From positions 1-23,539 of the IMG/VR virus record IMGVR_UViG_3300002144_000712: a stretch of 23,539 nt of DNA. One strand, 5' to 3'. Made by a program: the position numbers and the translations under genes. Below are positions 3,257 to 18,506 of the stretch, piece by piece; the stretch's first letter is position 1; every line of letters begins with the position of its first letter. The DNA is from a virus. Under the pieces are notes generated by a model, which searched no databases, was not told where the DNA came from, and saw only the letters and a list, made by a program, of their open reading frames with translations.

Positions 3257-3270
3257 CTTTGTTTTGGTTT
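3251..3270 (-). repeat. Repeated translation-start cassette, copy 3
   Basis: Same 20 bases as copies 1 and 2. It overlaps the last two bases of the ABC-membrane-domain gene stop (3269-3271) and starts the 75-residue gene. Confidence 0.85.
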
Positions 3271-4093
3271 AATTAATTCTTTTTATAATATTGTTTAATC
3301 TAGAATACATCTCAACTGCGATAGGGATTGACATTAATGATATTAAAAAGTTATTAACATAAGAATATATTGTAACCACACTTCCTGTCGTAATATCGTT
3401 TGAAGTTGTTATTAGAATTATTATAGATAAAACTAAAAATATTGATTTTATCATACCAACCAAAAACCAATTTTTACCTTGTAATGTTGATTCAAATATT
3501 TCTAGTTTTCTTCTTCGATTAAAAAAAGAAACTGAAGCTTCATATCCATTTTGTACTGCAGTTACTTTATTTTCGTAATGATTGTTTCTAACATTAATAC
3601 CTTGTCTTATTTTTTTATAAAACATCAGAACAGCAAATATTATAACAATTAAAGCTAAAGTAACCAATAGCCCTACTTTATAATTTGAATAGTATATAAA
3701 ACCTATTGAACCAAAAATTGTAATTATTGTTGCAATATAGTAATGTACGTACCCTTCCAGAACTCCAACGATATCATGCGCCATATCGGTTCTTGCAACC
3801 TTTATAGAATTATCATCGTTTGACTTTTTTAAAAATCTTAAAACGATATCGTTATAGATTTGAGTATAAACTTTAGTATCATAAACCATTCTTTTATAGT
3901 TGAAAAGATTGGAAATTGAATAAGATAAGAATAATAAAACAATCCAAAACCAACCACCACTAATTAATCCATCAATGCTTTTACCAAGCAGAAATGGTTG
4001 AGATATAATTGACAACTCTGTTATCAGCATAAATAAATAAATTAATGATAATTTATACTTATACTCTTTGAATATATCTATGATTTTACTCAT
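3269..4093 (-). CDS. ABC transporter six-transmembrane domain protein without ATPase domain
   Basis: 274 residues, with six hydrophobic spans at about 14-34, 47-63, 114-134, 140-158, 209-229 and 235-258. The long cytoplasmic extensions between spans 2-3 and 4-5 are the layout of type IV ABC exporter membrane domains (the ABC_membrane_3-like family). An ATPase domain would normally follow for about 250 residues; here the protein ends at once after span 6 (LNNIIKRIN, stop), and no Walker A or LSGGQ motif exists in neighbouring genes. It may form a passive channel, pair with a host ATPase, or act as a superinfection or membrane-remodelling protein; this is inference. The start ATG lies behind cassette copy 4 and overlaps the 50-residue gene by eight bases. 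Confidence 0.7.
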   Translation of the reverse strand: MSKIIDIFKEYKYKLSLIYLFMLITELSIISQPFLLGKSIDGLISGGWFWIVLLFLSYSISNLFNYKRMVYDTKVYTQIYNDIVLRFLKKSNDDNSIKVARTDMAHDIVGVLEGYVHYYIATIITIFGSIGFIYYSNYKVGLLVTLALIVIIFAVLMFYKKIRQGINVRNNHYENKVTAVQNGYEASVSFFNRRRKLEIFESTLQGKNWFLVGMIKSIFLVLSIIILITTSNDITTGSVVTIYSYVNNFLISLMSIPIAVEMYSRLNNIIKRIN

Positions 4094-10967: not shown

Positions 10968-11714
10968 TTATTCTGTTATTGGTTCATAGTTTATAATACT
11001 TGAAGGGGGAATATTTCCGTAAGTGTATATTCCTAAATTTTTAAAATTTGGGTCATTATAGAATGTATTGTTTAAACTTGTAGTATCAATTGTTAATAAA
11101 ACTCCATTTTTAATATGATACTTCATTTTTTCCCATAATCTATTATTTGCATCTTTATCTAATGAAAAATATATTCTTTCTGGGTGTGAAGATCTTTTGT
11201 TTAGTGTTTTAGGTTTTAAACCTGTTGATTTTATATTATCTATAAATTTAGAGTTAGTAATATGATATATGTAATTTGGTGGTTTTACTACATCATCATA
11301 TTTAGGTTCAAAAACAAATATAAGGTATGTAGGTTCATTTTCATCCATTAATTGTCTAAAATCTTTTGAATTATATCTTATACTATATTGTTTTGGTTGA
11401 TTATTTAATTCAAATTTTAATATAGAAGGAAAATATCCTAGGTTATTAACTAATTTTAAAAGATTAGATATTTTTGGGTCATAAATTTGATCTGTGTATC
11501 TGGAGTATTTAATATCTAAATATTCGGGTTTAAATCCCACAATTATCTCATTAGTTCTAGGATCATCAACTAAATCTAGTTCAGGATAACCATTAAGTTG
11601 TCTTGAAAGGATATCCATTGCTTGAGGTAATTCAATTGTTTTAATTAAACCTTCATAAATCTCTCCATTGAATGGATCTCTTAATACACCCTTTAAAATC
11701 TCTATTAATTTCAA
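10968..11714 (-). CDS. Possible ADP-ribosyltransferase-fold protein (KptA/DarT-like C-terminal half)
   Basis: 248 residues. The start is TTG at 11712-11714: an in-frame TAA lies just two codons upstream and the next ATG would cut off 32 residues; MKLIEIL is a common phage N-terminus. Residues 1-140 are unrecognised. From 148 the pattern YIYHITNSKFIDNIKSTGL, then HPERIYFSLD (177-186), and IYTYGNIPPSSI near the end resembles the H-[TS]...GL...Y core of KptA/Tpt1 and DarT-type ADP-ribosyltransferases: a first-strand His, a substrate loop and a Tyr. A catalytic Glu is not certain. It sits between the helicase and nrdB, with four bases to each side. Phage ARTs modify host proteins or nucleic acids; the target is unknown here. 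Assignment is tentative. Confidence 0.55.
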   Translation of the reverse strand: MKLIEILKGVLRDPFNGEIYEGLIKTIELPQAMDILSRQLNGYPELDLVDDPRTNEIIVGFKPEYLDIKYSRYTDQIYDPKISNLLKLVNNLGYFPSILKFELNNQPKQYSIRYNSKDFRQLMDENEPTYLIFVFEPKYDDVVKPPNYIYHITNSKFIDNIKSTGLKPKTLNKRSSHPERIYFSLDKDANNRLWEKMKYHIKNGVLLTIDTTSLNNTFYNDPNFKNLGIYTYGNIPPSSIINYEPITE

Positions 11715-11717
11715 ACC

Positions 11718-13070
11718 TTAAGTATTTAGTTCAAAAAATTTATTACTTAGCATCTTTCTATCAAATTCCTCATAATCACCACTTGACATTTTTTGAGGTG
11801 CATCTTCTTCTTCATTGTAATGATCTCCAATTAAAATTTGACCATTTGATGTATTAACATCTACTTTAAAAGTTAAACCGTCTATTCCATAACGGTTTTT
11901 CATAATATGTAAACGTCCAGTACCATTTACTTTGTCTTCTTTTTTACGTGATAAAGAAATTGAAAGGTCAGTTATCATCATTTTATCATAACTTCCCGCG
12001 GCTTTATCACCCTCAATAACATTATCTTTGGCACCTGCGCGGTTTACTTGCGAAACTGACCATATTGGAATATTTAATTGCCTAGCTAATCCCTTTGTGC
12101 TTGTATAAATATCATCAATTTCACCCTTACGATCTACATTTCGTTTTCTTGTTGATAAAAGATCTATGTAATCTATGATTATTAAATCAGGTTGCATGCC
12201 TAAGTCTTTAACTTTATTTATATGAGACTCTATAGTAGATATAGTAGTTTTACCCATAGGATACTCACGAATTATTAGTTCTCCTGGAAGTTGTGAGGTT
12301 ATATCTTCTACTTCTTCTTTATGATTTTCTAGTGAATCAACAGGATGACCTGTGAAAAAAGCGTCATATCGTCTTCCTGTATAAGATTCACTTAATTCTA
12401 AAGTATAATGGATAACATTAAATCCCATTCTAACAGCATACCCACCTAATGCAACTAAAGTCCAGGATTTACCACCACCAGGATTACCAAATATTAATCC
12501 TAAATCACCATTACCTAAACCACCTTGTACTAAATCATTTATAGGTTCCCAAGGTGTAGGAACAGTTGTTCTATGATCCTCTCTATAACGGGATTCTGTA
12601 TCTTTTTTATATTCGTGTCCTATATTTTTATCTTGACCTGCTTTCATAGCTGATTCAATCAAGTATTTTATAGAATCATAATCTCCAGCTTTTAGTAAAT
12701 CAACACTATTTAATAGTGCTTTTTTAAGTTGTTGGTTTTTACAAAATGTTGAAAATTCCTCTTGAACATATATTAGATCATCTAAATCTGCTTTATATGC
12801 TTCACGTAGTTGTTCTTTTATAGAAACTTTAAGTACCTCATTATCCAACTTCTTCATTTCAACCTTTAAGATATCCATTGACATAGTTGTATGATACTTT
12901 TCATAGTATTTTAAAATTTCATTTATGACCCATTTATGTGCTGGGTTGGAGAAATACTCATCACTCAATACATCATTTATATTCTGTAAGAATTCTTTGT
13001 GTGTTAATAGAGATGAAATAACTTTCATCTGAAACGCAGGACCGTATTCATCAATTGATTGTAACGTCAT
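11718..13070 (-). CDS. Replicative DNA helicase, DnaB/T4 gp41 type
   Basis: 450 residues. The N-terminal helical domain (about 1-150) would contact primase and the C-terminal RecA-like motor unwinds DNA 5'-3' on the lagging strand. Walker A is GNPGGGKSW (195-203), the catalytic Glu lies in TLELSES (about 223-229), Walker B is LIIIDYIDLL (296-305), and the sensor SVSQVNRAG follows near 340. DKAAGSYDKMMITDLSISLS and the later KNRYG with a TFKVD end are typical of DnaB-family enzymes. Length is close to T4 gp41 (475). No primase is visible in this window. It follows the exonuclease by 33 bases, with two AATAAAAGTTAT leader repeats in between. Confidence 0.94.
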   Translation of the reverse strand: MTLQSIDEYGPAFQMKVISSLLTHKEFLQNINDVLSDEYFSNPAHKWVINEILKYYEKYHTTMSMDILKVEMKKLDNEVLKVSIKEQLREAYKADLDDLIYVQEEFSTFCKNQQLKKALLNSVDLLKAGDYDSIKYLIESAMKAGQDKNIGHEYKKDTESRYREDHRTTVPTPWEPINDLVQGGLGNGDLGLIFGNPGGGKSWTLVALGGYAVRMGFNVIHYTLELSESYTGRRYDAFFTGHPVDSLENHKEEVEDITSQLPGELIIREYPMGKTTISTIESHINKVKDLGMQPDLIIIDYIDLLSTRKRNVDRKGEIDDIYTSTKGLARQLNIPIWSVSQVNRAGAKDNVIEGDKAAGSYDKMMITDLSISLSRKKEDKVNGTGRLHIMKNRYGIDGLTFKVDVNTSNGQILIGDHYNEEEDAPQKMSSGDYEEFDRKMLSNKFFELNT

Positions 13071-13075
13071 TTTTT

Positions 13076-13108
13076 ATAACTTTTATTTTGAATATAATAA
13101 CTTTTATT
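13076..13108 (-). repeat. Direct repeat of leader motif before helicase
   Basis: AATAAAAGTTAT occurs twice on the minus strand, at 13097-13108 and 13076-13087, 21 bases apart, ahead of the helicase start at 13070. The same motif ends in ATG at the starts at 4602 and 16605, but here no ATG follows directly. Confidence 0.6.
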
Positions 13109-14132
13109 GTTTTGGGCAAAGACCCTCAAATAGATCTTTTAACCAAGTGTCTACATTCCTTATTAAACCTCCTAATTGATCTTCCTCATACATTTTGGAA
13201 AATTGTTTTGGGTGGTAATTTAAGGGATGATTTTTGATAGTTTCAAGGGCATAAGCTTTTTCCTCTTCATCCATCATAGGATTTGATAAATCCATTACTC
13301 TATATTTATCCTCTAAACCATCTACATCATGTAATAATCGAGCATATGTAATATGTTCTTTTAATTTACTTTCAGCAATATCTAGTAAATCATCTAATGA
13401 TACATAATCTCCTTGGAGTTCTGGGAAGAATTTGAATAATTTTTTAGGACCTAATCCTTTTATACCTGTTATACCATCTGAGGAATCACCCATTAATAGT
13501 TTGTAAAGTATGAAGTTGTGGGGGTATACTCCAAATTTTTCCTTTACAGTATCAGCTGTGTAATATTCTTTTTCCATAGGTCTGTAAACAATTACATTTT
13601 CATTTATTAACTGTAAATAATCTTTATCACTGGATACTATAAAAGCTCTATCTGTTGGGTCTTTAATTAGATTTTGGCACAAATGGGCAATAATATCGTC
13701 TGCCTCTACTTTAGACATTGTGATAGTTTTGACAGGTAAAGTTTTCAAATATTGAATTATTCTAACTATTTGATTTACTTTGGAATCGTCTTCCTCTTCT
13801 AAATTTTCAAACACTTCCCAGTTTGTAACTCTACTAATATTTCTATTTGATTTGTATTCAGGGATCAAATTTTTTCTATTGTTTGAGGAACCAATTCCAT
13901 CAAAAACAACAAACACTTGTGTAGGTTGAATTTGACGGACAAGGGCACCTAAAGATCTGAAGAAGCCTCCTAAACCCCCTACATGGACTCCGTTTGGATT
14001 AACTGAATTTATGGCACTAAAATTTCTAAAAAATAAGTTGAGTCCATCAATGAACATATAACGTTCTTGTTGGGGTTGTTCCTCGCCATTTTCTTGTATG
14101 TTATCAAGGAGGTTTAAAAGGTCTTTCTTCAT
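13104..14132 (-). CDS. FEN-type 5'-3' exonuclease (T4 RNase H-like / PolI N-domain-like)
   Basis: 342 residues. It removes RNA primers and flaps. Metal-binding acids: Asp29 (FIDGLN), Asp78 (VVFDG), Glu143/Asp145/Asp146 (VEADDIIA), Asp169/Asp171 (SSDKDYLQL) and Asp216/Asp219 (GDSSDG), then the helix-hairpin-helix ITGIKGLGPKK (221-231). The set is complete. Length is near T4 RNase H (305); an N-terminal extension of about 24 residues precedes MFIDG. It lies between uvsX and the helicase. Since the polymerase here lacks an attached 5' nuclease, this protein supplies that function in trans. Confidence 0.93.
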   Translation of the reverse strand: MKKDLLNLLDNIQENGEEQPQQERYMFIDGLNLFFRNFSAINSVNPNGVHVGGLGGFFRSLGALVRQIQPTQVFVVFDGIGSSNNRKNLIPEYKSNRNISRVTNWEVFENLEEEDDSKVNQIVRIIQYLKTLPVKTITMSKVEADDIIAHLCQNLIKDPTDRAFIVSSDKDYLQLINENVIVYRPMEKEYYTADTVKEKFGVYPHNFILYKLLMGDSSDGITGIKGLGPKKLFKFFPELQGDYVSLDDLLDIAESKLKEHITYARLLHDVDGLEDKYRVMDLSNPMMDEEEKAYALETIKNHPLNYHPKQFSKMYEEDQLGGLIRNVDTWLKDLFEGLCPKQ

Positions 14133-14135
14133 ATT

Positions 14136-15215
14136 CTATTCTGGTTCTGAAATAAATGATTCTGCATTAACTGAGTGAGATTCTTCCTCTATGATATCAA
14201 ATCCGTCTCCACCTAAAATATCTTCCCATTCTTTTTTATGGGAATCTTTATATTCTTTAAGTGCTTTTTCATTATCCTCTATAAAGCCGTGGGGGGTAAT
14301 TACAATTCTACCTCTGGATTGGATACCATTGATATGATTTTTATCAATTTGTAGATTTGTGCGTTTTGCAAATTCAACTTGTTTACCATCTTTAATCGCT
14401 TTTAATTTGGAAGTTCCAGAATCAGCAACATTTCCAAATGTTACAACAAAAGTAGCATCAAACCACATTGCAAATCCACCTTTATTCATTAGTTTGGGTT
14501 GTGACATAGGGGTTTCTGCTTTCTTGGCCCATACCTTGTTTATACAAACTAAAGTATTCGTGTATTTTGAACTCTCTTTACGAGATAATGTGATTCGCTG
14601 GTTAACATTGTTACCGAATTGAGTTGACATTGCTCCTGCGTTCCATTCGTTGTTGTTTTTGTTTGATTTAACCGACATTTCACAAGGTACAGAACCAATA
14701 GAATCCCATAAAAATAATAGATCATATGGTAGGTTACCTTTTTTCTGCTCATCAATCATATCCAAAACAAATGCTGCAACATCCTCAATTGTATTGATTG
14801 TTTCTCTATCCACGTAAATGAAATTACCTGTATAATCAAGTAATTCACCTGTTTCCTCATCAACTACCTCCTCTACATTAAATCCCATCATTTGTGCATG
14901 CTCCCAAGACCATTTCATCTCTGTGATAATAAAAACAGGTAAAATACCACGTTTTTGGGCAGCAACCGCTGCCTCAAGCAACGCGGTAGTTTTTCCTGTA
15001 TCAGAGTGGCCTCTTAAAAGAATAATGTGTCCCATAGGAATTCCAGGTATAGAGGTAACATCTTGAAATGCTTGGGAAAGTGGTATCCATTCTTGTGGTT
15101 TAAATTTTACACTAGTGGATAGGCCTTTCTTTGATTTAAAACTGTTGATATTAAAACCTGATTTAATCTCCTTATCAACTGCCTCTGACAGTGATTTTCT
15201 TTGTTTTTTCGCCAT
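14136..15215 (-). CDS. uvsX: UvsX/RecA-like recombinase
   Basis: 359 residues. It would coat ssDNA with ATP and drive strand exchange and recombination-dependent replication. Walker A is GHSDTGKTT (69-77), the catalytic Glu is in FIITEMKWS (95-103), and Walker B is LLFLWDS (166-172). FIYVDRETINTIEDV and GAMSTQFGNNVNQRI (193-207, DNA-binding loop L2 region) support RecA-family identity, and SRGRIVITPHG is near the C-terminus, which ends acidic. T4 UvsX has 391 residues. Start ATG 15215. It is four bases before the exonuclease start and directly downstream of the SSB gene, the arrangement expected for partners at the replication fork. Confidence 0.9.
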   Translation of the reverse strand: MAKKQRKSLSEAVDKEIKSGFNINSFKSKKGLSTSVKFKPQEWIPLSQAFQDVTSIPGIPMGHIILLRGHSDTGKTTALLEAAVAAQKRGILPVFIITEMKWSWEHAQMMGFNVEEVVDEETGELLDYTGNFIYVDRETINTIEDVAAFVLDMIDEQKKGNLPYDLLFLWDSIGSVPCEMSVKSNKNNNEWNAGAMSTQFGNNVNQRITLSRKESSKYTNTLVCINKVWAKKAETPMSQPKLMNKGGFAMWFDATFVVTFGNVADSGTSKLKAIKDGKQVEFAKRTNLQIDKNHINGIQSRGRIVITPHGFIEDNEKALKEYKDSHKKEWEDILGGDGFDIIEEESHSVNAESFISEPE

Positions 15216-15235: not shown

Positions 15236-16081
15236 TTAGAAGGGCAGATCATCATCATCCCCATCCTCTTCATCAAATAATTCATCAAATGCCTCTACTT
15301 TTGATTTTTTAGCAGCAGGTTTTGTTGATAAACTGTAATTTGATTGTGGTTCTGATGTTTTCTCATCCTCAAAACCATCATGTGATTCGGGAACAATATC
15401 TCCTTCTTCATCCTCTGGTGATAACCATTCTTGTAAAGCAGCTTTGATATCATCAAATGGGAGTGGTTTGTAAGTTTCTTTTGGATTTGTTTGATTTTCC
15501 AACCAACTTTCAATCTCTTTCTCATCTTGTGATAATGGAGATACTTTCATTGAAGGTGAGATAGTTGTTTTGTTGTACTTTGTACCGGTAACATCAGGAC
15601 CAACAGTAACAATTTTAATATCTCTACCAACTGCAACATCAGTAAAATCTCCTACTTCCTCATCAGCTGCCATTTGCAAAAATGCTTCGTAAATTTCTTT
15701 ACCAAATTGCCATAGTTGTACTCCTTCTTCCTCTTCTCCTCTTACAATAACAGGAGCAAAAATACGAATTTTAGGATCTAATGTTTTAGCCAAACGCCAG
15801 TTTTCCTTATCGTTTGTACCTCTTAATTGCTTTGCAAATTCTGCAATTGGGTCTTTCTCTCCCCAGTTTAATGGAGAAGCAATAACTTTTTTACTTCCAA
15901 TTCCATAGTAAAACTTCATTTCAGTAAATGGATATTCCTTGTTGTATTTGAAAGGCACAACACGAACTACTTGTTTACCGATTTGAGGTTTAAACTGTTT
16001 TGTTTTTTGATAATCACCACCTCCTCCTTTTGGGGTGCTTTGCATGGATTCTAACTTTTTCTTGATAGCATCTAGATTCAT
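15236..16081 (-). CDS. Single-stranded-DNA-binding protein, gp32-like, without zinc ligands and with SSB-like tail
   Basis: 281 residues from ATG 16081. A GTG at 16135 would add 18 residues containing the only Cys; 16081 follows a TTAAGTTATATT leader and starts with MNLDAIKKKLESMQ, like gp32 N-termini. The OB-fold core includes GKQVVRVVPFKYNKEYPF and AVGRDIKIVTVGPDVTGTKYNKTTI. In gp32 a zinc ion is held by a His and three Cys; in the aligned place here the chain reads MKFYYGIGSKKVIASP and then EKDPIAEFAKQL, so no ligands remain and the protein is Cys-free. The C-terminus is strongly acidic and ends DDDDLPF, close to the DDDIPF tail of bacterial SSB that recruits partners. It precedes uvsX, its usual partner. 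Identity as gp32-like is supported by position and pattern. Confidence 0.85.
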   Translation of the reverse strand: MNLDAIKKKLESMQSTPKGGGGDYQKTKQFKPQIGKQVVRVVPFKYNKEYPFTEMKFYYGIGSKKVIASPLNWGEKDPIAEFAKQLRGTNDKENWRLAKTLDPKIRIFAPVIVRGEEEEGVQLWQFGKEIYEAFLQMAADEEVGDFTDVAVGRDIKIVTVGPDVTGTKYNKTTISPSMKVSPLSQDEKEIESWLENQTNPKETYKPLPFDDIKAALQEWLSPEDEEGDIVPESHDGFEDEKTSEPQSNYSLSTKPAAKKSKVEAFDELFDEEDGDDDDLPF

Positions 16082-16143
16082 AATATAACTTAATTTAAAT
16101 TGTTTACAACTATTAATATAATAACCTTTATTCACTAAGCCAA

Positions 16144-16605
16144 CTATACTTCAATAATCTTGTAGATCTTTGTATTCAGTTGCTTTATTTCATTGTGTTG
16201 AGTGAGCAATATACAGTTTCTGTAGTGTTGCCAATTAACTGGGAATTTTGTATCAACTACACCTCCATTTAATTTTTTAATTAGCTCATTTAAAGCATTT
16301 ATCGTGTATAACGTATTTGATTCCTTTTTTCTATGCACCAAAATTGTGTTCTCAGGAATAGAATTAACATTACCTTGATCTACATTATATGTAACAACAT
16401 ATTCATCATTACTTTTAATGTACAATACAAACATTTTGTTGTACATTATAGTGTATCTACTAGATAACGTATCAATTAGAAATTCTAACTCGTTTAAGGG
16501 AGTGAAGGTACAAAAAAGTCTGTTGTTCACGGATATATAATCTTCGTAAGTGTTAAAGTCGTATCCGTTATACGTATATGGTTCTTGTTGTAAAGTGTTG
16601 TACAT
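16144..16605 (-). CDS. Hypothetical protein in replication block
   Basis: 153 residues, start ATG 16605 behind leader AAAATAAAAGTT. Tyr- and Asn-rich, mixed beta/alpha in appearance, without membrane segments or recognisable catalytic motifs. It lies five bases after the polymerase stop and 62 bases before the SSB start. Position suggests an accessory replication factor, but nothing in the sequence proves it. Confidence 0.75.
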   Translation of the reverse strand: MYNTLQQEPYTYNGYDFNTYEDYISVNNRLFCTFTPLNELEFLIDTLSSRYTIMYNKMFVLYIKSNDEYVVTYNVDQGNVNSIPENTILVHRKKESNTLYTINALNELIKKLNGGVVDTKFPVNWQHYRNCILLTQHNEIKQLNTKIYKIIEV

Positions 16606-16610
16606 AACTT

Positions 16611-17858
16611 TTATTTTAAATTATAGTTTTTACCTGTTTTAAATTTAACATTTAATTTATATTTTTTAAATACCTCTAATATTTCTTTTATTGTATCTTT
16701 TTCTTTCTTATCTGTATCCAATAAAAACGAATCATATACATACAATACAAGTTTTGTATTTTTTCCTCTTAAAATTTTAAAAATATCATATAATATAAGA
16801 ACATTAGTTGATGTCTCCAAGTTTTGTAGTAAGTAATTTAAAAGCTTTTGTGGATTCATCTCTTTTAACTTATCCTTTTCAAATCTATATTTTGATATCG
16901 GACACTCAATATATCCTTTTTGTTCAAACTCTTTCCATATTTCTTGTGTAAATGCTTTTACTTTCGAAAAAAACGGAAGATCCTCATATTGTTTAAAAAT
17001 ACCCCCATATAGTTGTTTAAAGGTAATCTCTTTTGCTTTGGCGTATTCCACTCCATACATTTTAGCAAAACTGTTATGCACGTCACTATCATCAAAACTG
17101 TAATCCAGTATATTGCCAAGCAAGGTAGGATGGTAAGCACTAATATCCATTTCAATAAAAATATCATTGCGGGGTATAAAACATTCTCTTTCACCTGTGT
17201 CTTTATTTAATGCTGAAAAATTTATGCCCCCAAAAGTATTTGATGGGCGTGTAGTTAACGTATTTAAATTATATTGTGTATAGACATATTCCTCGGTATC
17301 TACCCCAAAGTAATGTTTATATAACGTAGTATTTACTTTTATTCCGCTCTGTTCCAACATATTGAATACCAATGGTACTTTGTTGTTGTAAAAGTTGTTT
17401 GAGAGCTCAAAATTGTGGTTCTTGTAGTTTTCATTGCATACCTCATAATGTTTAACTATTGGTATAATTGTGTTTGTGTGTGTTATATTTGTATTATTTT
17501 GTATGTGTGTGTGGGATTTGGTTGGTTGTGGTATATACGTATTTAGGGAGGGGGAGGAGTGTAGTAAATGCTTTAGAGCAAAATAGTGTAAAAATTCTTT
17601 TTTATCTCTAACATATACTTCCTCTATGCTGTTTAGTACTTTTTTGCATACCTCTATATCTAAATTTATTGTTTCACTATGCTTAATTGGTATGATGTAT
17701 CCCTTTGTGTCTTTTAAAGGTCTAACAAATAATGCACATACTTGATTTTGTGAAGGGTGTAGGGTAGGGGAGGTTGGGATTATCTCCACGTATGCTTGTT
17801 TGTGTTTTTTTTCACACAACAATTCAATTTTTTCTACATCTTCAATCAGCCAGTACAT
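16611..17858 (-). CDS. Divergent family A DNA polymerase
   Basis: 415 residues. The palm/fingers motifs of the PolI family can be traced: TRPSNTFGGINF then GERECFIP (203-229, before motif A), motif A MDISAYHPTLL (237-247, Asp238; PolI: DYSQIELR), motif B AKAKEITFKQLYGG (273-286: Lys276, Phe280, Tyr284 kept, but Tyr272 where PolI has Arg754), and motif C VLYVYDSFLLD (371-381), with Asp376 kept but the usual HDE changed to YDS. LLNYLLQNLETSTN (339-352) resembles the NxxxQgxaAD helix. The first about 100 residues (YIIPIKHSE, VRDKKEFLHYF) look like a remnant of the 3'-5' exonuclease fold, without the full acidic set. Residues 102-133 are a Thr/His/Asn-rich linker. Much shorter than typical family A enzymes (600-900). 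T4-like phages normally use a family B polymerase. Confidence 0.75.
   Translation of the reverse strand: MYWLIEDVEKIELLCEKKHKQAYVEIIPTSPTLHPSQNQVCALFVRPLKDTKGYIIPIKHSETINLDIEVCKKVLNSIEEVYVRDKKEFLHYFALKHLLHSSPSLNTYIPQPTKSHTHIQNNTNITHTNTIIPIVKHYEVCNENYKNHNFELSNNFYNNKVPLVFNMLEQSGIKVNTTLYKHYFGVDTEEYVYTQYNLNTLTTRPSNTFGGINFSALNKDTGERECFIPRNDIFIEMDISAYHPTLLGNILDYSFDDSDVHNSFAKMYGVEYAKAKEITFKQLYGGIFKQYEDLPFFSKVKAFTQEIWKEFEQKGYIECPISKYRFEKDKLKEMNPQKLLNYLLQNLETSTNVLILYDIFKILRGKNTKLVLYVYDSFLLDTDKKEKDTIKEILEVFKKYKLNVKFKTGKNYNLK
17460..17555 (-). repeat. Low-complexity GT/AC-rich linker within polymerase gene
   Basis: The plus strand is GT-rich (TGTTTGTGTGTG, TATGTGTGTGTGGG) and the minus strand encodes the His/Thr/Asn-rich segment at residues 102-133 of the polymerase. 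It probably marks a flexible join between the N-terminal domain and the palm. Confidence 0.6.
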
Positions 17859-17882: not shown

Positions 17883-18506
17883 TTAAGCAGACAAATTTTT
17901 ATAGTATTTTGTATAATCCTCTTTTAGGAATTTTGAAAAACCATTCCATTTTTTCTTTCGCTCTATATCTCTAACAATTATTGTGTTGTAATCATTTACT
18001 TGTTGTTTTTCAAAACCAGATATTATCCATTGTATTTGAACGGGTTCGTATAAATCCCATGCTATGTTTGAGGAACGTGAGTTTAGGTCTGTGTATGTTT
18101 GTTTTGATATTTCTAGATATCTTAGCTCATTTGTTTTTTTAGCAAAGTATCTTACCATTTTCCCGTTTTCGTAGTCTTGTGGAGTGGGGAGGGTGATGGA
18201 GGGAGAAGGGATTTCTGAAAATGCATTCTCACTGGTTACTCCTCTTAAGTTGCTGTATGAGGTTCCTAGTTCTGTTATGTATCTTAGTTTGTTTGGTTGA
18301 AGGGTAGTAACAATAGAATCTTCTAAAGATATAAAAGGTTCAAGCAATATATTATTTCCATCTTGAGGGGTTTTACCTGTATATTTTTGTCCTGTAGAGA
18401 TTTCATAGTAATATCCTATATATACCTCTCTAGTAGAAGAAAGAAGATATTCACCCCCATTAGTATAAAGGTTTGATTTTATTTGAGATTTAGGATAATA
18501 AGCCAT
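17883..18506 (-). CDS. Conserved phage protein, probably structural
   Basis: 207 residues beginning MAYYPKSQIKSNLYTNGGEYL. The start region with YYEISTGQKYTGKTPQDG (33-50) resembles a conserved protein I recall next to baseplate genes of marine T4-like phages, where it is unassigned. No membrane segment or enzyme motif; the C-terminus (KFLKEDYTKYYKNLSA) is basic and helical. It is 12 bases after the M15 peptidase and 24 bases before the polymerase, so it closes the virion block. A virion role is likely by position, not proven. Confidence 0.75.
   Translation of the reverse strand: MAYYPKSQIKSNLYTNGGEYLLSSTREVYIGYYYEISTGQKYTGKTPQDGNNILLEPFISLEDSIVTTLQPNKLRYITELGTSYSNLRGVTSENAFSEIPSPSITLPTPQDYENGKMVRYFAKKTNELRYLEISKQTYTDLNSRSSNIAWDLYEPVQIQWIISGFEKQQVNDYNTIIVRDIERKKKWNGFSKFLKEDYTKYYKNLSA

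Follow-up and report, generated by a model that had tools for sequence, protein, structure and literature searches.

Positions 16,611 to 17,858 of the window, on the minus strand, encode a compact family A DNA polymerase of 415 residues that has no thumb and a dead exonuclease domain, and that is an additional member of the already known divPolA1 family. By the window we mean the whole stretch of DNA analysed, a linear IMG/VR viral record of 23,539 nucleotides that constitutes a 23.5-kb fragment of a larger genome. The family A fold and the assignment to divPolA1 are close to certain. Judged from the sequences of the protein and its relatives, it is very probably an active polymerase and not the main replicase of the phage.

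Fold and family of the polymerase

An earlier note on this DNA had proposed a compact family A polymerase at this location, an identification that stands with a single correction, which concerns the strand: the gene is on the minus one. There it forms one complete open reading frame with an ATG start; in the same interval the plus strand has stops throughout and no coding frame. The AlphaFold2 model (mean pLDDT 93.2, pTM 0.91) exhibits a Klenow-type fold including the palm, and the Klenow fragment was its best match in the PDB (Foldseek E 1.3e-17, TM 0.73 over the query), with the apicoplast polymerase, M. smegmatis Pol1 and Pol theta among the further top matches. Structure prediction with a fold search was one of the checks named in the note, another being a profile comparison with family A polymerases. 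As a single sequence the protein scored 22.3 bits against Pfam DNA_pol_A, under the 34.3-bit cut-off that members of the immuto clade exceed, and matched PHROG 17 'DNA polymerase' (E 4e-8). When the PDB was searched with a profile from 59 homologues, Klenow aligned across motifs A, B and C, and comparison by hhalign with the aligned sequences of E. coli Pol I, T7 gp5 and phage PolAs gave a probability of 96% (E 2.4e-9), so that the register versus E. coli Pol I was checked in two ways. None of the outcomes that the note had listed as speaking against a polymerase was observed, i.e. the lack of a palm fold, a profile match to a non-polymerase family, or loss of Asp238 and Asp376 in all homologues.

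The divPolA1 family was described by Yutin et al. in 2024 in 14 immuto-group phages. According to the passages of that paper on divPolA1 (PMC11348598), these proteins have a truncated thumb, replacements of the exonuclease catalytic aspartates and an intact palm, they accompany a regular polymerase, which may belong to family A, B or C, and conserved replication genes lie downstream. The window protein exhibits 37% identity to immuto gp001 over 91% (tblastn E 3e-70), and the present results, reached independently, agree with the published account. The thumb is truncated, the exonuclease aspartates are gone, the palm residues are kept, a replicase is encoded beside it in relatives and the same downstream genes are conserved, with no difference in kind from the immuto protein as those passages present it. 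New with respect to them (PMC11348598) are the His243/Tyr272/Tyr375 signature, the extent of the thumb loss, the neighbouring gene p153, and a far wider range, with members in Microcystis phage Mel-JY01 and in the 484-kb LR756508.

More than 580 matching stretches were found in IMG/VR among the matches listed. In 84,980 cellular genomes there were seven matches, all in MAGs, and these are probably binned phage contigs. The carriers are large T4-like phages, mainly flavobacterial, but also cyanobacterial and others. A similar case is divPolA2 of barbaviruses, likewise an extra family A polymerase beside PolB, without a standard thumb and with an inactive exonuclease; going by its description in the same passages (PMC11348598), it differs from divPolA1 in having an unrelated N-terminal domain and a variable gene neighbourhood.

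Active-site signature, thumb and N-terminal domain

Conservation was counted in 256 distinct near-full-length homologues with identities to the window protein down to 24%. The catalytic residues are retained: Arg204 (R668 in E. coli Pol I), Asp238 (D705), Lys276 (K758), Tyr284 (Y766) and Gln345 (Q849) each occur in 256/256, Phe280 (F762) in 255/256 and the motif C aspartate Asp376 (D882) in 255/255, and the equivalent of N845 is also kept. Four other positions have changed. His243 replaces E710 in 256/256 homologues, Tyr272 replaces R754 in 253/256 and Tyr375 replaces H881 in 254/255, while the E883 position is Ser in 124 and Ala in 131. Motif B (RxxxKxxx[FY]xxxYG) has kept its Lys, Phe, Tyr and Gly and exchanged its Arg. 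The earlier note had correctly picked out Asp238, Lys276/Phe280/Tyr284 and Asp376, as well as the Tyr at the Arg754 position and the YDS in place of HDE, and its description of motifs B and C as altered holds in the verified register; the change from Glu710 to His243 is additional. Since the pattern is kept in 256 distinct homologues, and dN/dS for divPolA1 versus window-clade relatives is 0.07-0.20, it is not a product of chance.

E710 is the steric gate of Pol I (PMC13228545), and R668, Q849 and H881 correspond to the 'fidelity switch' of Pol gamma (PMC11122685). In Pol I, the penalty is about 1300-fold when R668 is lost and about 10-fold when H881 is lost, with a kcat that is lowered approximately 10-fold and an activity that is not abolished when His881 is mutated (PMC11122685). 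The divPolA1 family retains the costly fidelity-switch residues and swaps the tolerant ones.

An analogy drawn in the earlier note between YDS and the HDS of T7-like RNA polymerases was found to carry no weight. Motif C does lack Glu in both groups (it reads YDS or YDA in divPolA1), but divPolA1 retains the DNA-polymerase residues Phe280 and Tyr284. Kinship with T7 RNA polymerase was rejected, as the top folds are DNA polymerases and half of the homologues have Ala in place of the Ser.

The loss of the thumb is seen in the spacing between Glu169 and Arg204, which is 35 residues (range 23-43 in all homologues) compared with 127 between E541 and R668 in Pol I, with E169 anchored as the equivalent of E541. 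About 90 thumb residues of Pol I are absent from every one of the 256 homologues. The fingers are shortened too, by stretches of about 14 and about 22 residues near motif B, and residues 184-223 of the AlphaFold2 model contain no helix.

The N-terminal part had been called degenerate and nuclease-like, a view upheld by the fold match and not by sequence, as a profile comparison of the domain alone matched nothing. The assignment as an exonuclease domain comes from the fold, since the polymerase part alone (about 220 of the 415 residues) cannot give a TM of 0.73. The DEDD carboxylates are absent, and near-invariant acids within residues 1-140 are confined to positions 62 and 139. The domain also has invariant His34, His60 and Lys87, and residue 62 is always acidic (Asp or Glu). 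A Thr/His/Asn linker, pointed out in the earlier note, exists in the window sequence and exhibits no conservation in the alignment.

Accompanying replicase and gene neighbourhood

Thirty-three long phage records carrying divPolA1 were searched for other polymerases. A standard replicase is also encoded in 29 of them, being of family B in 20 and a full-length family A enzyme (approximately 780 aa) in nine, and no record among the 33 has both. On the strand of divPolA1, this replicase gene is found 19-55 kb further downstream. The other four records (G011, G015, G019, G030) stop 2-8 kb downstream, before the expected replicase place, and a search of these four for a family C polymerase gave nothing. 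The PolB motifs are intact (DLTSLYPS, KILLNSLYG and DTDS), as are those of the full-length PolA. The earlier note had left a choice between the main replicase and a specialised polymerase beside another one outside the window, and had suggested a search for a family B polymerase elsewhere; the relatives speak for the second option. Because every record that extends far enough downstream proved to have a separate replicase, a role of divPolA1 as main replicase is disfavoured. For the phage of the window, of which only 23.5 kb are at hand, the relatives in its clade point to a PolB as the probable replicase.

Immuto-clade phages have the full-length PolA and the other clades PolB, and in the gene tree (midpoint root, for drawing only) the PolA clade branches inside PolB-bearing lineages. 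In phage immuto itself, which infects Flavobacterium sp. LMO8, the PolA is gp199. The replicase was probably swapped between clades while divPolA1 remained. A DnaG-type primase was present in all eight examined genomes of at least 150 kb, including immuto's own annotated gene. The T4-type clamp model PF02916, which control genomes show to be weak, gave nothing above cut-off in 11 records.

In many relatives of the window clade, PolB is encoded by two abutting open reading frames (approximately 560-590 and 310-320 aa) that together keep all motifs, the split falling between motifs B and C (L108:502-3101, L109, L111, L357 and L358). This is reminiscent of the split gp43 in Aeromonas phages. In the 484-kb phage LR756508.1 (W03; positions 47415, 241534 and 260623) three polymerase families occur together, since divPolA1 is joined there by a family B enzyme in two open reading frames and by a match to the family C alpha subunit (E 2.5e-42).

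The T4-like gp32/UvsX/FEN/gp41 block around the polymerase, as recognised in the earlier note, was borne out. All genes concerned are on the minus strand. Downstream of divPolA1 follow p153 (16,144-16,605; 153 aa), a gp32-like single-strand binding protein (15,236-16,135; PF08804 E 1.2e-11, phrog_1192), a UvsX/RecA-like recombinase (14,136-15,215; PF00154 E 3e-7, phrog_97), a 5'-3' exonuclease of the FEN/T4 RNase H type (13,104-14,132; PF02739 E 6.7e-35, phrog_107) and a gp41/DnaB-like replicative helicase (11,718-13,070; PF03796, phrog_19 E 3.8e-73). Directly upstream, in a conserved position, is up207 (17,883-18,506; 207 aa), which diverges very fast, with 105 clusters at 60% identity compared with 6 for p153. 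The order LTP-LysM-hub-up207-divPolA1-p153-gp32-uvsX-FEN-gp41 on one strand is shared by the window, immuto and Mel clades. It recurs in less complete form, with no uvsX detected or with only some of the genes, in L176, LR756508 and the small L177 clade.

The product of p153 (130-150 aa in the family) is encoded directly downstream of divPolA1 at 70 of 70 loci, all found by searching with p153 itself, and within 300 bases at 68 of them. Among annotated phage records, the six with a clear divPolA1 match are the same six that have p153. A fold search with p153 gave no match below E 0.1, and no Pfam or PHROG family scored above noise. RegA, suggested by the position near a polymerase gene, was rejected (hhalign probability 0.2%). 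From its co-conservation p153 is a candidate partner, and a physical partnership with divPolA1 is a tentative and rather unlikely proposition.

Three further minus-strand genes of the window were noted. The product of 10,968-11,714, between the helicase gene and nrdB, has a weak RNA 2'-phosphotransferase/Tpt1 match (phrog_5470, E 8.5e-5), was seen in just one other locus and is possibly an enzyme with an ADP-ribosyltransferase fold. The gene at 3,269-4,093 encodes an ABC-transporter transmembrane region (PF13748, E 1.8e-21) with no ATPase domain, which is unusual for a phage. The 264-residue product of 93-887 is 32% identical to immuto's annotated DNA guanine transglycosylase DpdA, and the window phage may have 7-deazaguanine DNA modification.

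Possible roles of divPolA1

The role that we tentatively put forward, with p153 left aside, is gap filling or recombination, at a probability that falls just short of even. A separate replicase, PolB in the clade of the window, would copy the genome, and divPolA1 would make short stretches of DNA distributively and without proofreading. We infer such short synthesis because the thumb is lost, proofreading is absent, and FEN, gp32 and UvsX are the company of the gene. The enzyme would fill gaps after primer removal by FEN and/or extend the 3' ends of intermediates that arise in gp32/UvsX recombination and repair, and p153 would perhaps hold it on the DNA in place of the thumb. Together, divPolA1 and its neighbours would be a split version of the work that bacterial Pol I does in a single chain. 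Against this role, His243, Tyr272 and Tyr375 could slow the enzyme greatly or alter its substrate, and the fixed synteny says little about a shared pathway because vertical inheritance of one block would give the same order.

A bolder version has divPolA1 and p153 as a two-protein polymerase with p153 as the thumb, the dead exonuclease pocket remodelled around His34, His60, Asp/Glu62 and Lys87 for binding or cutting 3' or 5' ends, and His243, Tyr272 and Tyr375 conferring unusual nucleotide selectivity; we consider it improbable.

A function of divPolA1 in translesion synthesis or damage tolerance, in which a widened active site would serve for lesion bypass or for copying modified phage DNA, is also unlikely. 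The dead exonuclease, the changed steric gate and fidelity-switch residues and the proximity to UvsX and gp32 fit such a function, as do the tolerance of Pol I for His881 mutation at the lower kcat given above (PMC11122685) and the DpdA-like modification gene that immuto and the window share. However, both fingers and thumb are reduced rather than enlarged, and no extra loops of the Pol theta kind were noted.

A role for divPolA1 as the chief replicative enzyme, or as one member of a pair at the fork (e.g. for the lagging strand), with the regular polymerase specialised, appears distinctly unlikely. A phage genome of 150 kb normally requires a processive proofreading enzyme, and divPolA1 has neither proofreading residues nor a thumb and its fidelity residues are altered, whereas the motifs of the regular polymerases are complete. 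On the other hand, in every clade divPolA1 keeps its place in the conserved gp32-uvsX-FEN-gp41 block, while the other polymerase switches between PolB and PolA. In their passages on divPolA1, Yutin et al. suggest that it takes part in replication, interpreting the synteny to mean that it is 'involved in replication' and regarding the function of the regular polymerase as less obvious (PMC11348598).

Synthesis of RNA or mixed primers, where a His at the steric gate would admit rNTPs as in a primase or RNA polymerase, is very doubtful. This proposal draws on the replacement of the E710 gate (PMC13228545) by His in every homologue, on a motif C ending in Ser or Ala, and on the RNA-polymerase option which the passages in question raise for divPolA2 and not for divPolA1 (PMC11348598). 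However, the bulky His may still block the 2'-OH, Phe280 and Tyr284 near the gate are kept, the best structural matches are DNA polymerases, and a function as sole primase is disfavoured because the DnaG-type primase is encoded elsewhere in the same genomes. A catalytically dead relic with a structural role, in line with the many changed non-catalytic active-site residues and the already dead exonuclease part, is extremely improbable in view of both metal-binding Asp and the equivalents of R668, K758, Y766 and Q849 being invariant in 256 sequences with identities down to 24%.

With divPolA1 as an active polymerase beside the replicase, the preferred reading, many of the large aquatic phages possess a pair of polymerases, one being a natural Klenow that lacks thumb and proofreading. 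Such an enzyme, with four active-site positions changed, offers a ready-made test of what the thumb, the steric gate and the residues of the fidelity switch do. It also raises the question why a second polymerase is kept by a phage that has a full replicase, and the family is made testable by its signature and by the linked p153 gene.
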